This document shows positions 1 through 6,419 of a stretch of DNA of 64,000 bases, piece by piece. The translations under genes were made by a program, and so were the position numbers. Below the pieces are notes generated by a model, which was not told the origin of the DNA, ran no database searches, and saw only the letters and a program-made list of their open reading frames with translations. The DNA is from Nitrosospira multiformis (GTDB taxonomy: Bacteria; Pseudomonadota; Gammaproteobacteria; Burkholderiales; Nitrosomonadaceae), in the NCBI GenBank assembly GCA_017306155.1, contig JAFKJB010000012.1, positions 1 to 64,000 of the forward strand, read 5' to 3'. Numbering within the stretch: the stretch's first letter is position 1; every line of letters begins with the position of its first letter.

Positions 1-34
1 AACAACATCATTACGGAGTAAAGGAGAGAAGCAG

Positions 35-1756
35 ATGTTAATGAAGCCTTGGCTGAGGCTGGTTACGCTTGCGTGTGGAGTGCTGTTTGCGGGCGCCACG
101 TGGGCCAACTTTCCCAGCGTTCCCAAAGAGACGTATAAGGCGCTGAAGCTGGAGCAGTCGGCTTCGCCGAAGGAGCTGCATTCGGCGCTGGTGAAGCGTT
201 ACAAGGATCCTGCGCAGGGAGCGGGACGTGGCACGCTGGCGAAGTACTGGGAGCCGATCCCGATGAGCATGTACTTTGACCCTGCCTCGTACTACAAGCC
301 GCCCACCTCGATGAAGGAAGTTGCGGCGCGGGAGGAATGCGTCAAATGCCACACGGACGAATCGCCGGTATGGGTGAGTGCGTGGAAGAGGAGCACGCAC
401 GCGAACCTGGACAAGATCCGGAACCTGAAGCCTGAAGACCCGACGTACTACAAGAAGGCGAAGCTTGAAGACGTGGAGAAGAATCTTCGCTCGATGGGCA
501 AGCTTGGGGACAAAGACAAGCTCAAGGAAGTAGGGTGCATTGACTGCCACGTTGACATTGGCAAGAAGGACAAGGCAGACCACATGAAGGATTTGCGGAT
601 GCCGACGGCGGACGTTTGCGGCACCTGCCACCTTCAGGAATTTGCCGAACGCGAATCGGAGCGTGACACTTTGGTATGGCCGAACAAGCAATGGCCGCAG
701 GGACGGCCCTCGCACGCACTGGACTGGAAGGCGAATGTGGAAGTAGCGGTATTTGCCTCGATGCCGCAGCGGGAGATTGCCGAAGGCTGCAGCATGTGCC
801 ACACCAACCAGAACAAATGCGACTCCTGCCACACGCGGCACGAATTTTCTGCTGCCGAATCGCGTCATCCTGAAGCGTGCGCCACCTGCCACAGTGGAGT
901 AGACCACAACAACTGGGAAGCCTACTCCATGAGCAAGCACGGCAAGACGGTAGCGATCATGGGCGACAAGTGGAACTGGAACGCGCCCCTGAAGGACGCC
1001 TACACCAAGGGTGGTCAGACAGCGCCCACCTGTGCCGGGTGCCACTTCGAATATGAAGGCAAGTACAGCCACAACGTGGTGAGGAAGATACGCTGGGCCA
1101 ACTACCCTGCGGTTCCGGGGATAGCCGAGAACATCAACAGCGAATGGTCGGAAGGGCGGCTGGACTCCTGGGTCAAGACCTGCACGCAATGCCACTCCGA
1201 GCGTTTTGCCCGCTCCTACCTTGAATTCATGGACAAGGGCACGCTGCACGGCATCGCCAAGTACAAGGAAGCGCACGCGGTGGCCGAGAAGCTCTACAAG
1301 GAAGGCCTGCTGACGGGCCAGAAGACCAACCGTCCGACCCCGCTGCCGCCTGACAAGGAAATGTTCGCAGGCTTCACCCAGCTCTACTGGAGCAAGGACA
1401 ACAACCCTGCTGCAATCGAGCTCAAGGTACTGGAAATGGGAGAGAACAACCTTCCCAAGCTGCACGTAGGGCTGGCGCACGTCAACCCGGGCGGCTGGAC
1501 CTATACCGAAGGCTGGGGCCCGATGAACCGCGACTACGTCGAAGTCATGGACGAGAACACCAAGATCCGTGAGATGGCGGCGTTGCAGGCGAAAGTAGCC
1601 AAGCTCGATGCCAAGCGCAAGACAAGCCTGTTCGACCTTGACAGCAGCGAGAAGCTCTCGCTTGGCGGTCTGGGTGGCGGCATGCTGCTGGCCGGCACGC
1701 TTGCCCTGGCAGGCTGGCGCCGGCGTGAGAAGAACGAGGGCGTCCGCAAGGACTGA
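35..1756 (+). CDS. haoA: Hydroxylamine oxidoreductase (octaheme HAO)
   Basis: Periplasmic enzyme that oxidizes hydroxylamine in ammonia oxidizers and passes electrons to cytochrome c554. The 573-residue product starts with a signal peptide ending near ATWA. It has eight CXXCH heme sites (CVKCH, CIDCH, CGTCH, CSMCH, CDSCH, CATCH, CAGCH, CTQCH) between about residues 102 and 387. The segment [13 protein letters not shown] contains Tyr490, which by position matches the tyrosine that cross-links the P460 heme in the Nitrosomonas enzyme. A glycine-rich hydrophobic helix and a basic tail (about residues 541-573) look like a C-terminal membrane anchor. A purine-rich ribosome site, aaaggagag, precedes the ATG; a second ATG two codons on is possible. 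haoB follows 9 bases after the stop. Confidence 0.97.
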
Positions 1757-1765
1757 TATCCTGTT

Positions 1766-2857
1766 TTGACCGCAAGTACCTCTAGCCGCGCCATACTGGC
1801 GCGGCCTGGCTCCAAACTCCTCCCCTCACTGGGCATTCTCCTGGTGGCGGGAGGAATTCTTTTGCTCCTGTGGTTTGCCTGGGCGTGGTTCAACCCCGGG
1901 CCTGCCCCCTACCGCTACCAGCTGGCGGAAGAAGGCAGCGCAGACAAATTCCCGCAGCTTGGACTGGGCAAGTGGCCGGATCTCTCCATTGCCCGGTATG
2001 AAGTTTTTGCCGAAGACATTCCCCAGCCGCTGGCGGTGCTGCATGCTGCAAGGCAGGGCAATGACGCCCTGGTGAGGCTCGACTGGGAAAACCGCACGAG
2101 TGAGCTGCTGCTCACCACCGATCTCAAACTCGATGAACTGGCCACTTTGGCTACCGCCATTGACAAGTACGCAGGCAAGGATGCGCTGGTGCTGGGCTGG
2201 TGGGACACCTCGCGCCAGCTGAAGCTTCTCTCGAAGCGCGACACCCTGTTTGGCGGACAGTTCTCCGAGTACCTCGTCATACCCGCACCGTGGCAGAAGC
2301 AGGCTGACGCCATCCGCAAATACGAAGACGCCTTCTGGGGCGGCAAGGCAGGCGGGGAAGAAGAGCGGGTATTCGAGCGCTTTGCCGATGCCCTGATGGC
2401 CGAACCCGAGGCGGGTGCTGCCATCCTGCGCGAACTGGCAGGCGATCGCGAAGCCTATGTCGCCATTCATGTCACCGACCTGTACAAGCTTGGCATCATG
2501 CGCGCGGGCCGGTTCGACGTTGCCTATCGCAACTTCCCGATGGAAGGCAACATGCATGGCATGGTCGACTATCTCAAGAGATGGGTACTGGACAACGGCT
2601 ACAAGACCTACACCCTGCAATCCCTGTCCGACAGGCTGGTGCGCGGCTACTTTCTCAAGGATGACAAAAGCGACCGGACGCTGATTGCGCAGATGCTGCC
2701 CTTCACCGAATCGATGCCGCTTGACCTGACCGCGGTGCAGCTCATCTACCAGACCGGGGGCTACTGGGTGTATAAAATACCGGGCGGCAAGGAACCTGCC
2801 TCTGCCGGCGCCCCCCCGGAGGATGCTGCCTCTTCCCCGGCGCCCGCCCTGCCTTAA
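1766..2857 (+). CDS. haoB: HaoB, conserved protein of the hydroxylamine oxidation cluster
   Basis: The second gene of the hao cluster in ammonia-oxidizing betaproteobacteria; its biochemical role is not established. The 363-residue product has one strong hydrophobic segment near the N-terminus (LLPSLGILLVAGGILLLLW, about residues 19-37). The rest is soluble, so it is probably anchored to the membrane with its bulk in the periplasm (inference). There is no CXXCH motif. The C-terminus is rich in Ala and Pro. The frame opens with TTG 9 bases after haoA with no clear ribosome site of its own, which suggests translational coupling to haoA. It is assigned by position and general character, since family motifs are few. 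Confidence 0.85.
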   Translation: MTASTSSRAILARPGSKLLPSLGILLVAGGILLLLWFAWAWFNPGPAPYRYQLAEEGSADKFPQLGLGKWPDLSIARYEVFAEDIPQPLAVLHAARQGNDALVRLDWENRTSELLLTTDLKLDELATLATAIDKYAGKDALVLGWWDTSRQLKLLSKRDTLFGGQFSEYLVIPAPWQKQADAIRKYEDAFWGGKAGGEEERVFERFADALMAEPEAGAAILRELAGDREAYVAIHVTDLYKLGIMRAGRFDVAYRNFPMEGNMHGMVDYLKRWVLDNGYKTYTLQSLSDRLVRGYFLKDDKSDRTLIAQMLPFTESMPLDLTAVQLIYQTGGYWVYKIPGGKEPASAGAPPEDAASSPAPALP

Positions 2858-3801
2858 GCCTCTGAATAAACCGATATCGGCAGCTGTCCGGCAGCCGCAA
2901 GCTGTGACCACCCACTTCAGCCCACAGCCGCATCGGCAGCCACTCATTGCACCATCAAAACATGGCAAGGCAGCCCGGTAAAGTCCGGGCATTCTTCGTT
3001 TACCCGAACTCCAGCAAGACTTCCCTAGGAGGGAGCGGGTCGTTCCGGGTCCTGTCGAAGACCCCTGTACCCCTGACCTCTGTACCTCTGCACCGCGCTG
3101 CGCTACTCCTCTGCGCGATGAACTTCCAGGGCGACCGTGCAGGGGAGCAAGTATTCCATGCGTGATAAACTGCTCTGGAGCGTACACCTCGTGTTTCAGC
3201 CCGGTCGCGGCGCCCCCACCATTACTGGTGCACCGTGCGAAGCGACCGTGCAGGGGAAAAAGAATTTTGGCTGTAGCCAACCACTCCTGCGTGTACACCT
3301 CGTGTTTCAGCCCGGTCGCGGTACTCCTTTACGCGATTAAACTTCCAGGGCGACCGTGCGCGGGAGCAAGGGTTTTCCCTGTAGTCAGTTACTCCTGTGC
3401 GTACACCTGCATTAAGCACGGTCGCAGCGTCCCTTCGCTGCCCGACCCCGCTACGCGGGTCCCCCGTGCCGCGCTCCCGGGACGCCCTGCCCAACCTCGC
3501 TTCGCGGGTCTCCGAACTGCACTCCGGGCGCTACCGGTACCAGTGGTACCAGAAAGAGTGATGGTACTGGTGCTACCCGTCCCTATAAACCGGAGATACA
3601 GTACGGGTACAATAAAAGGTGTGTCCTGAAGTTGCGATCATTGCGCTATCATTACAATGACAGGTAAGACAGACAAAAAAACAGGAACGGGGAACAACAA
3701 AATACGGATCGGTTGTAGTCGCATGAAGCTGGAAGGGATACAGGAATCCAGGGAATAACGGAAACAACGGATATACTTGCCGAAAGAAAAAAGGAGGAAG
3801 G
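2858..3801. other. Long spacer between haoB and cycA
   Basis: A 944-base stretch without a convincing gene. From about 3106 to 3440 it carries three copies of a roughly 110-base repeat, listed separately. Around 3430-3520 follow short GC-rich inverted segments built on cgctacgcggg and cgcttcgcggg, and around 3537-3577 nested GGTACC palindromes. The last 200 bases are AT-richer and may hold the cycA promoter. A weak candidate is TTGCGA at 3632-3637 and TACAAT at 3653-3658, with a short 15-base spacer. Confidence 0.6.
3106..3440. repeat. Three degenerate copies of a ~110-bp tandem repeat
   Basis: The word gcgaccgtgc occurs at 3131, 3242 and 3350, that is 111 and 108 bases apart. The word gtacacct occurs at 3182, 3293 and 3401 with the same spacing. 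A 21-base segment ending in ggtcgcgg is identical at 3190-3210 and 3301-3321. Each unit starts with gcgaccgtgc and ends with a full or partial reverse complement (gcacggtcgc at 3416-3425), so each could fold into a long hairpin. Two units also share tactcct and acttccaggg upstream. Confidence 0.85.
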
Positions 3802-4509
3802 ATGAACCATCGCATGACACTCGCCCTGGCCGCGGCAGCGCTGTTTGCGGTCATGGCAGGCAGCGCGTCTGCCCAATCGTTTGAAGGCCGCAAGAAATGC
3901 AGTTCCTGTCACAAGAGCCAGGCCGAATCCTGGGGCAGCACGGCGCACGCCAAGGCCATGGATTCGCTAAAGCCCAACAACAAGGCCGAAGCCAAGAAGA
4001 AGGCCAAGCTCGATCCTGCCAAGGACTACACCAAGGACAAGGACTGTGTCGGCTGTCATGTGGATGGCTGGGGCAAGGAAGGCGGCTACACGATTGACGA
4101 CCCGAGCAAGTTCCTGACCGGAGTAGGCTGCGAATCCTGCCATGGACCCGGCTCCAAGTATCGCGGCATCCACCGCAAGGCCGGCGCCGCTTTCGAGAAA
4201 TCGAAGAAGACCGCCTCCCGCCAGGTGCTGGCCGATGCGGAGCAGGACTTCAGCTTCGAGGAAAGCTGCAATGCCTGCCACATGAACTACAAGGGCAGCC
4301 CGTGGAAGGGTGCCAAGGAACCCTACACCCCCTTCACCCCGGAAGTGGACAAGAAATACACCTTCGACTTTGACAAGTACGTCAAGGACACCAAGGCCAT
4401 GCACGAGCACTACAAGCTCGACGGGGTCTTCACGGGGGATCCGAAGTTCAAGTACCACGATGAATTCCAGAAGAGCGCCAAGGTAGGCGAGAAAGGTTCG
4501 GACGACTGA
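3802..4509 (+). CDS. cycA: Tetraheme cytochrome c554
   Basis: Periplasmic electron acceptor of hydroxylamine oxidoreductase. The 235-residue product has a signal peptide cut near GSASA-QS and four CXXCH sites (CSSCH, CVGCH, CESCH, CNACH), the number expected for c554. It is Lys- and Asp-rich with a highly charged surface, as is usual for this protein. A strong ribosome site, aaggaggaagg, sits just before ATG 3802. It is followed after one base by the cycB frame, so the two are co-transcribed. Unlike compact hao clusters, nearly 1 kb separates it from haoB, so it may have its own promoter. Confidence 0.96.
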   Translation: MNHRMTLALAAAALFAVMAGSASAQSFEGRKKCSSCHKSQAESWGSTAHAKAMDSLKPNNKAEAKKKAKLDPAKDYTKDKDCVGCHVDGWGKEGGYTIDDPSKFLTGVGCESCHGPGSKYRGIHRKAGAAFEKSKKTASRQVLADAEQDFSFEESCNACHMNYKGSPWKGAKEPYTPFTPEVDKKYTFDFDKYVKDTKAMHEHYKLDGVFTGDPKFKYHDEFQKSAKVGEKGSDD

Positions 4510-4510
4510 C

Positions 4511-5078
4511 ATGGCGATGAAGACAGGCAGCGCCCTTCTGACGGGCGCACTCTTGGGAGTGGTGATGGTGGCGGTGGTACTGGGCGGCGAAGCGGCCGTC
4601 TCCACCACCGAATTCTGCACCAGCTGCCACTCCATGACTTATCCTGCCGAGGAGTTGAAGGATTCCTCGCACTATGGCGCCCTGGGCGCCAACCCTGGCT
4701 GCAAGGACTGCCACATCCCGCAGGGATTGCAGAACTTCCACCTGGCGGTGGCGACCCACGTGGTGGATGGGGCGCGCGAACTCTATCTTGAGGCGGTCAA
4801 CGACTACTCCACGCTGGAGAAATTCAACGAGCGCCGATTGATCATGGCGCACGATGCGCGCATGAATCTCAAGAAGTGGGACAGCGTCACCTGCCGTACC
4901 TGCCACAGGAATCCGCAGCCTCCTGGAGCGGATGCCAAGGCCGCGCACAAGAAACCAGAACCTCGTGCACAAGGAGGTTGCAGAAACCGACCTGAACGAG
5001 AGCATCAAGCAGGGCAAAATGGTGCTCAAGCCTGAAAAGAAGGATGACGAGGACGAAGAAGAGGAAGAGGAGGAGTAG
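4511..5078 (+). pseudogene. cycB: Cytochrome cM552 gene with internal deletion and frameshift
   Basis: A NapC/NirT-family membrane tetraheme cytochrome that normally passes electrons from c554 to quinone. The N-terminal anchor helix (about residues 7-24) and three heme sites, CTSCH, CKDCH and CRTCH, are intact. After AAHKK (codon ending 4954) the frame changes. The family-like C-terminus beginning QNLVHKEV and ending in a run of acidic residues is still encoded, but in another frame (4956 to TAG 5076-5078). The segment between, which should hold the fourth CXXCH, is missing. As read, translation ends at 5035 with 174 residues, an unrelated tail and only three hemes. The intact family member is about 230-240 residues (from memory). 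It is likely non-functional or altered; another genomic copy may serve. Confidence 0.85.
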
Positions 5079-5168
5079 CCGGATGCCGGCAGAGAACGTT
5101 GCAGTGCAGTGCGTTCCTTTGCTGCTGTAATTTGCAGATCCGGTTTATACTTTCTCGTTACCTCTGGT

Positions 5169-5205: not shown

Positions 5206-5411
5206 ATCCTGCTGTCTGCCATGCTTCACGCTTATCAGTTCAGTCTGGATTTCCTGATCGAGAATTCGAAATTTCCGTCTTTACGGATTATTCTCAGGAC
5301 ACTACACTCATATTGTATGTAACGGCACCCGGATTTACCCTTCGATAGCCTATCACTGAACGATCTTCTGGCTTCGCCGTACGGAGAGGGAGATTCCTTT
5401 TGTGTGAAGGA

Positions 5412-5445
5412 TTGTCACGAAACTGTAACATTTCCATCATACTAT
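5412..5445 (+). promoter_or_regulatory. PHO box and -10 element for pstCAB
   Basis: Two 7-base direct half-sites, TTGTCAC (5412-5418) and CTGTAAC (5423-5429), lie 11 bases apart and match the PhoB-binding PHO box pattern. TACTAT at 5440-5445 sits 10 bases further on, where the -10 of a PhoB-activated promoter belongs. It implies transcription start near 5452 and induction by phosphate limitation. Confidence 0.8.
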
Positions 5446-5486
5446 TTAGGCCCTTCCAATGGTTTTACTTCAAGGTGCAATTCCCG

Positions 5487-6419
5487 GTGACAGTGCGCCG
5501 CTCCGATAATACTTCCGAGTCTAGTACACTTGGATATAACTATCGCCGTCATCTGAGTGAGCGTTTTATTGAGGCCTTGCTTTTTTTGATGGCATTCGTT
5601 TCGGTCGCCATTACCCTTGCGATCGTCGTGATGCTGGTCACCGAATCCCTTTCATTTTTCGAGCATGTATCTCTCTGGGAATTTCTTACCGACACGCAGT
5701 GGACACCCCTTTTCGATAATGCGCATTACGGTATACTTCCACTCGTTTCCGGTACCGTAGTAAGCTCTGCGGTGGCCTTGCTCGTTGCAATCCCGATGGG
5801 CACCATCACTGCCATTTATTTATCCGAGTTCGCGCCTTTTACCGTCCGTGAGGTGGCTAAGCCCTTTCTCGAACTGCTGGGGGGTGTGCCAACAGTCGTA
5901 TACGGTTACTTTGCATTGCTGTTTGTTACACCTCTATTGCAGAAAATTTTTCCGGAGTTGCCCGGTTTCAGTCTTCTTTCAGCAGGGCTGGTGATGGGTA
6001 TCATGATCATTCCCTATGTAAGCTCCATGGCGGAAGATGCGATGCGCGCAGTACCCATGCATCTGCGGGAAGGCTCTTATGCAATGGGTGCGACCCGGTT
6101 CCAGACGGCTGTTCGCGTGGTAATGCCAGGAGCATTCTCCGGCATTGCCGCGGCTTATATCCTGGGTATTTCCCGGGCAGTGGGGGAAACGATGGTGGTT
6201 GCGATAGCAGCAGGAATGCAGCCAAACCTCACGTGGAATCCGATGGAACCTGCCGCCACCATTACCGCTTATATCGTTCAGGTAAGTCTGGGTGATCTGC
6301 CGCATGGCAGTATCGGGTACCAGACTATCTTTGCAGCAGGATTGACCCTGCTGCTTATAACGCTGGTATTCAATATTATCGGGCATCTTCTGCGCAAGCG
6401 CTTCCGCGAGGTATATTGA
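5487..6419 (+). CDS. pstC: Phosphate ABC transporter permease PstC
   Basis: One of the two inner-membrane channel subunits of the high-affinity phosphate importer. The product has about six hydrophobic segments and the permease loop MREGSYAMGATRFQTA-like region (LREGSYAMGATRFQ) followed by GISRAVGETM, typical of PstC. An open frame extends back to a TTG at 5400, but that would place the PHO box and -10 inside the gene. GTG 5487, with aaggtg 9 bases upstream, is therefore preferred (310 residues); GTG 5475 or 5493 are alternatives. pstA follows after 110 bases. No pstS precedes it, so the binding protein must be encoded elsewhere. Confidence 0.93.
   Translation: MTVRRSDNTSESSTLGYNYRRHLSERFIEALLFLMAFVSVAITLAIVVMLVTESLSFFEHVSLWEFLTDTQWTPLFDNAHYGILPLVSGTVVSSAVALLVAIPMGTITAIYLSEFAPFTVREVAKPFLELLGGVPTVVYGYFALLFVTPLLQKIFPELPGFSLLSAGLVMGIMIIPYVSSMAEDAMRAVPMHLREGSYAMGATRFQTAVRVVMPGAFSGIAAAYILGISRAVGETMVVAIAAGMQPNLTWNPMEPAATITAYIVQVSLGDLPHGSIGYQTIFAAGLTLLLITLVFNIIGHLLRKRFREVY

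Follow-up and report, generated by a model that had tools for sequence, protein, structure and literature searches.

A 35-base gap that removes the fourth heme site of cycB in a Nitrosospira multiformis draft genome is probably an assembly join error at a collapsed hao cluster

The window studied here comprises the opening 64,000 bases of the 219,585-base contig C19 in a 36-contig draft genome of Nitrosospira multiformis. It contains a hao gene cluster whose last gene, cycB, is written with three heme-binding motifs. The question raised by this locus is whether the organism has lost the fourth heme site of cytochrome cM552 or whether the sequence misrepresents an ordinary gene. The cM552 proteins (NapC/NrfH-like) are thought to carry electrons from HAO and c554 to the quinone pool, and quinol/quinone redox activity is the function given in the literature to the NapC/NirT-type family. 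A preliminary description of this DNA had proposed that the fourth site was lost in the organism and that HAO would then pass electrons to c554 without a local quinone reductase.

The cluster, like the other annotated parts of the window, lies on the forward strand. It begins with an intact ORF of 573 amino acids (35..1756), which we take to be hao, encoding hydroxylamine oxidoreductase, and which has 98-99% identity to the HAO of G003, G007, G008, and G009. It continues with two intact ORFs that are present in all 17 clusters compared: one of 363 amino acids (1766..2857), presumably haoB (orf2), and one of 235 amino acids (3802..4509), cycA, encoding cytochrome c554. The cycB gene is placed directly after hao-haoB-cycA, the position expected for cM552, and the same gene order, hao-haoB-cycA-cycB, is found in the hao clusters of Nitrosospira and Nitrosomonas. 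Further downstream lies an ORF that we assume to encode a pstC-like phosphate transporter permease (5400..6419); in each of the six near-complete relatives compared, such a gene adjoins hao cluster A on its 3' side.

The protein encoded by cycB in the window matched PF03264 (Cytochrom_NNT) with 133.2 bits at a cut-off of 24.1, in agreement with its earlier assignment as a cM552/NapC-like protein, and a hydrophobic stretch is visible at its N-terminus. This match ends at profile position 154, covering positions 6-154 of 174, whereas an intact relative spans positions 6-172. When the intact relative Nl12 was used as query in a sequence search of solved chains (threshold E 0.01), NrfH chain C of 2j7a was the sole match (2j7a_C, residues 9-168, E 9e-8). 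The first 148 amino acids of the window protein showed 95-97% identity to the cM552 of N. multiformis strains and G007. Relatives at 78-82% identity also occurred outside the usual ammonia oxidizers, under the record labels Ca. Desulfobacillus, Rhodocyclales, Burkholderiaceae, and Lautropia (L109, L111, L112, and L114).

As written, cycB is an ORF of 174 amino acids (4511..5035) with three CXXCH motifs, all in frame up to 4953. Translation of window 4511-4954 gave 148 residues containing CTSCH, CKDCH, and CRTCH and ending in AAHKK, which agrees with the intact frame described earlier. Alignment to N. multiformis Nl12, Nl18, and Nl7 and to the near-complete relative G007 revealed that 35 bases are absent after 4953 (junction 4953..4954, with an ambiguity of 1 base at 4954), and in the relatives this piece encodes CIDCH, the fourth CXXCH. 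The preliminary description was therefore right that the missing piece holds the fourth motif and that more than a simple indel is involved, with 35 bases absent and not one. Past the junction, the 3' end of the gene (4954..5077) keeps its original frame from 4956, and translation of window 4956-5078 gives QNLVHKEVAETDLNESIKQGKMVLKPEKKDDEDEEEEEEE followed by a stop. This frame, with the tail QNLVHKEV...EEE and TAG at 5076, had been read as the continuation of the protein; its letters are as described, but the tail is not translated, since translation would not shift into the frame that begins at 4956, and the 174-residue ORF instead ends in PEPRAQGGCRNRPEREHQAGQNGAQA at the TGA of 5033-5035. 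Thus, the cM552 of relatives carries a fourth CXXCH and an in-frame acidic tail, whereas the window copy as written has neither, and its ORF contains three of the four CXXCH motifs that characterize a tetraheme cM552. After the tail, TAG is followed by CCGGA (window 5076-5083), one base shorter than the TAAGCC(G/A)GA in four cluster A flanks (G007 and the drafts G003, G008, and G009).

The fourth site is conserved among the relatives. All 17 cycB copies of the six near-complete relatives had four CXXCH motifs. Among the relatives of the first 148 amino acids, of which 80 loci were kept of 345 and the best cycB matches were N. multiformis strains, the fourth site was found in 78, and the other two (L079 and L090) are cut by the sequence end before the site. 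Sixty-three loci had four sites and a stop codon, 13 had four sites and ran off the locus end, and two (L115 and L116) begin inside the gene with the fourth site present. The preliminary description had allowed that relatives might share a three-heme cM552 of this length; no complete three-heme cM552 without the fourth site was found among the 80 kept relatives (of 345).

A DNA search of the genome with cycB gave one further hit, at the very end of contig C34. In the direction of the stop codon, the final 149 bases of C34 consist of 25 bases including CIDCH, which are 25 of the 35 absent from the window, and then 124 bases identical to window 4954-5077. At least one cycB 3' end in the genome thus encodes the fourth heme site. 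Because this holds whether the gap is a deletion or a join error, the proposal that HAO works without a local quinone reductase is not supported. The preliminary description had named reads with a missing segment of about 40 bases and a CXXCH as evidence that would count against it; such a segment was in fact found here, on contig C34 rather than in reads of this locus, which counts against heme loss in the organism.

The 5' side of the cluster is likewise shared. Window 1-149 is identical to the end of C23, and window 1-140 is identical to the ends of C21 and C14; the presence of the 5' end of the hao cluster at three contig ends suggests about three clusters in the genome. The repeat shared by all hao-cluster copies begins with the very first base of C19, and three contigs overlap there, so that C19 does not assign its cluster to any single locus. 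The unit hao-haoB-cycA-cycB (1..5077) is therefore a collapsed repeat in which about three genomic copies are shown once, as judged from its identity with the ends of C23, C21, C14, and C34.

Five near-complete relatives (G006, G012, G020, G021, and G022) have three hao clusters at conserved places, and G007 has clusters A and B only. Cluster A lies between sucCD and pstC, cluster B after a NIF3-like gene, and cluster C upstream of a 260-aa ORF and a DEAD-box helicase; upstream of cluster C, G006 and G020 have an FNT-type transporter and a cytochrome oxidase gene. By synteny, C23 and the pstC side of C19 would be the flanks of cluster A, C14 the 5' flank of cluster B, and C21 and C34 the flanks of cluster C, with gene names that we take to be correct for these five contigs. 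No 3' flank of cluster B was found in the readable sequence of the genome; contigs C1, C3, and C18, all shorter than 3 kb and N throughout, might hold it.

The drafts of Nl12 (G009), Nl7 (G008), and Nl18 (G003) show the same topology: the cluster has three 5' flanks, cycB has two 3' flanks, and the repeat itself is collapsed into a single unit (candidates scored: 40 of 78 in G009, 39 of 39 in G008, and 40 of 50 in G003). In those drafts the repeat is a separate contig of about 5 kb with an intact four-heme cycB, whereas in the present genome it continues into one of the flanks and lacks 35 bases. PMC6053082, which also uses the name haoB, lists haoA, haoB, cycA, and cycB among the genes under long-lasting concerted evolution in eight Nitrosomonadales and describes their copies as nearly identical in nucleotide sequence. 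From this near identity we infer that hao clusters collapse in short-read assemblies. Our literature search recognised no paper on the assembly of this strain.

The contig ends of the genome follow a simple rule. Both ends of all 36 contigs were considered, and each was compared with the other ends, with window positions up to 6 kb, and with the terminal part of C4 in search of a partner; 6 ends were masked, 16 had no alternative partner, and 50 were testable. The run from terminus to divergence was exactly 149 bases at 48 of the 50 testable ends, and 148 and 141 bases at the other two. C34 fits the rule with 25 + 124 = 149 bases. Its first shared base is position 26, compared with positions 1 to 16 at other ends, and sharing starts this late because its partner on C19 is without those 25 bases. 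Under the same rule, the expected end of the contig with the pstC flank falls inside the 35-base gap, 10 bases from the left break and 25 from the right. An internal partner at C4 also fits the rule and is gap-free. As a candidate control for the repeat-to-flank join, the end of C32 resembles the start of C19, and no contig end matched inside C32. For other unpaired ends, 40 of 53 candidates were scored in a genome-wide partner search, with the start of C19 handled separately.

We consider it probable that the 35-base gap is an assembly error, made where the collapsed repeat was joined to one of its flanks. On this account, the hao-haoB-cycA-cycB cluster would be present in about three nearly identical copies, and the assembler would have merged their reads into a single unit; the unit would have been joined to the 3' flank of one cluster, on the pstC side, and the 35 bases with the fourth heme site would have been lost at this join. 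What we observed directly is that the repeat is collapsed, that contig ends follow the 149-base rule, that a second and intact 3' end exists, and that the gap sits where a contig boundary is expected. The window cycB thus probably falls short of four heme motifs only through assembly, and the cell's own version is most likely an ordinary four-heme cM552 of the NapC/NrfH-like type. The claim that the organism lost the fourth heme site is accordingly not supported, given the CIDCH on C34, the collapsed state of the cluster, and a gap that spans an expected contig boundary.

Several points weigh against a join error. A join made purely through a de Bruijn graph would leave no 35-base loss. Moreover, the examined part of the 36-contig genome, which comprised 13 contigs and 80 kb from the start of C19 (about 387 kb), contained no runs of N, and hence there is no sign of gapped scaffolding in this part. 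The 149 bases at C34 do not single out the pstC copy, because cluster B has a cycB in all six near-complete relatives and could also set the boundary of C34; for this reason, we rejected the 149-base rule alone as proof of a join error. In addition, the junction lies between the arms of an imperfect 18-nt inverted repeat (78%), a structure that might speak for a real deletion.

The strongest alternative, which we regard as unlikely but worth serious attention, is that cluster A, which lies between sucCD and pstC, suffered a real and recent 35-base deletion that inactivated its cycB. What remains would be a three-heme protein of 174 amino acids with a scrambled end, with the copies of clusters B and C supplying cM552. 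The sequence as it stands does contain the gap, the examined contigs are free of N runs, as an assembly from overlapping reads only would be, and three redundant copies would make one loss tolerable. If cluster B has the 149 bases of C34, copy A is not needed to account for where C34 ends, and in two of the five three-cluster relatives (G012 and G021) the 149-base words that A and B share with C do stop at the same base; in the other three (G006, G020, and G022) they stop at differing bases. However, none of the 78 related loci that reach the site is without it, and a random 35-base deletion in an intact gene would span the expected boundary in about 34 of 568 placements, or about 6% of the time. 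The breakpoints themselves offer hardly any homology, with no more than 1 base shared as judged from relatives. The sole 10-nt direct repeat near the junction is kept in both copies, so that simple slippage is not indicated, and we rejected slippage between direct repeats as the mechanism. Furthermore, the 124 bases past the gap are still identical to copy C, and any real loss would therefore have to be recent. It thus seems rather doubtful that the cycB of one hao cluster out of three has truly undergone a frameshifting deletion so recent that gene conversion has not yet erased it. If it has, the deletion would be a snapshot of concerted evolution among the three clusters starting to fail or to repair, and a natural test of gene conversion keeping them alike.

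It is quite improbable that the gap is a minority variant, a chimeric read, or a product of strain mixture taken by the assembler at the low-confidence repeat boundary. In that case the gap would enter the graph without scaffolding, which fits the lack of N runs in the part examined, but the estimated contamination of the genome is 0.08. A functional three-heme cM552 selected in the organism, with HAO reducing c554 without a local quinone reductase, has only the missing motif in its favour and was rejected as extremely improbable, because the reading frame past the gap is scrambled, no relative among the 80 has a complete form of this kind, and C34 encodes CIDCH.

If the gap is an assembly join error, as we favour, the locus would show that near-identical multi-copy operons of energy metabolism in ammonia oxidizers collapse in short-read assemblies. 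The lesson is one of caution and not of discovery: where a gene seems to be missing at the border of such a repeat, no physiological conclusion should be drawn from it.

Other features of these clusters were observed as well. In all six near-complete relatives (L228, L235, L238, L240, L245, and L246), a MocR-type regulator and, on the opposite strand, an amoBAC operon come after the cycB of cluster B, which indicates a conserved hao-amo linkage. A complete amoCAB operon was not seen in the present genome, where a search with the G007 region gave only pieces of amoC at contig ends (C26 end and C27 end), C1, C3, and C18 consisting of N; amoCAB is probably another collapsed repeat. Finally, the long spacer between haoB and cycA contains three imperfect 59-nt direct repeats (window 3131-3408) at a spacing of 111 and 108 bases, and parts of the spacer have similar counterparts on C23 and directly upstream of hao on C14.
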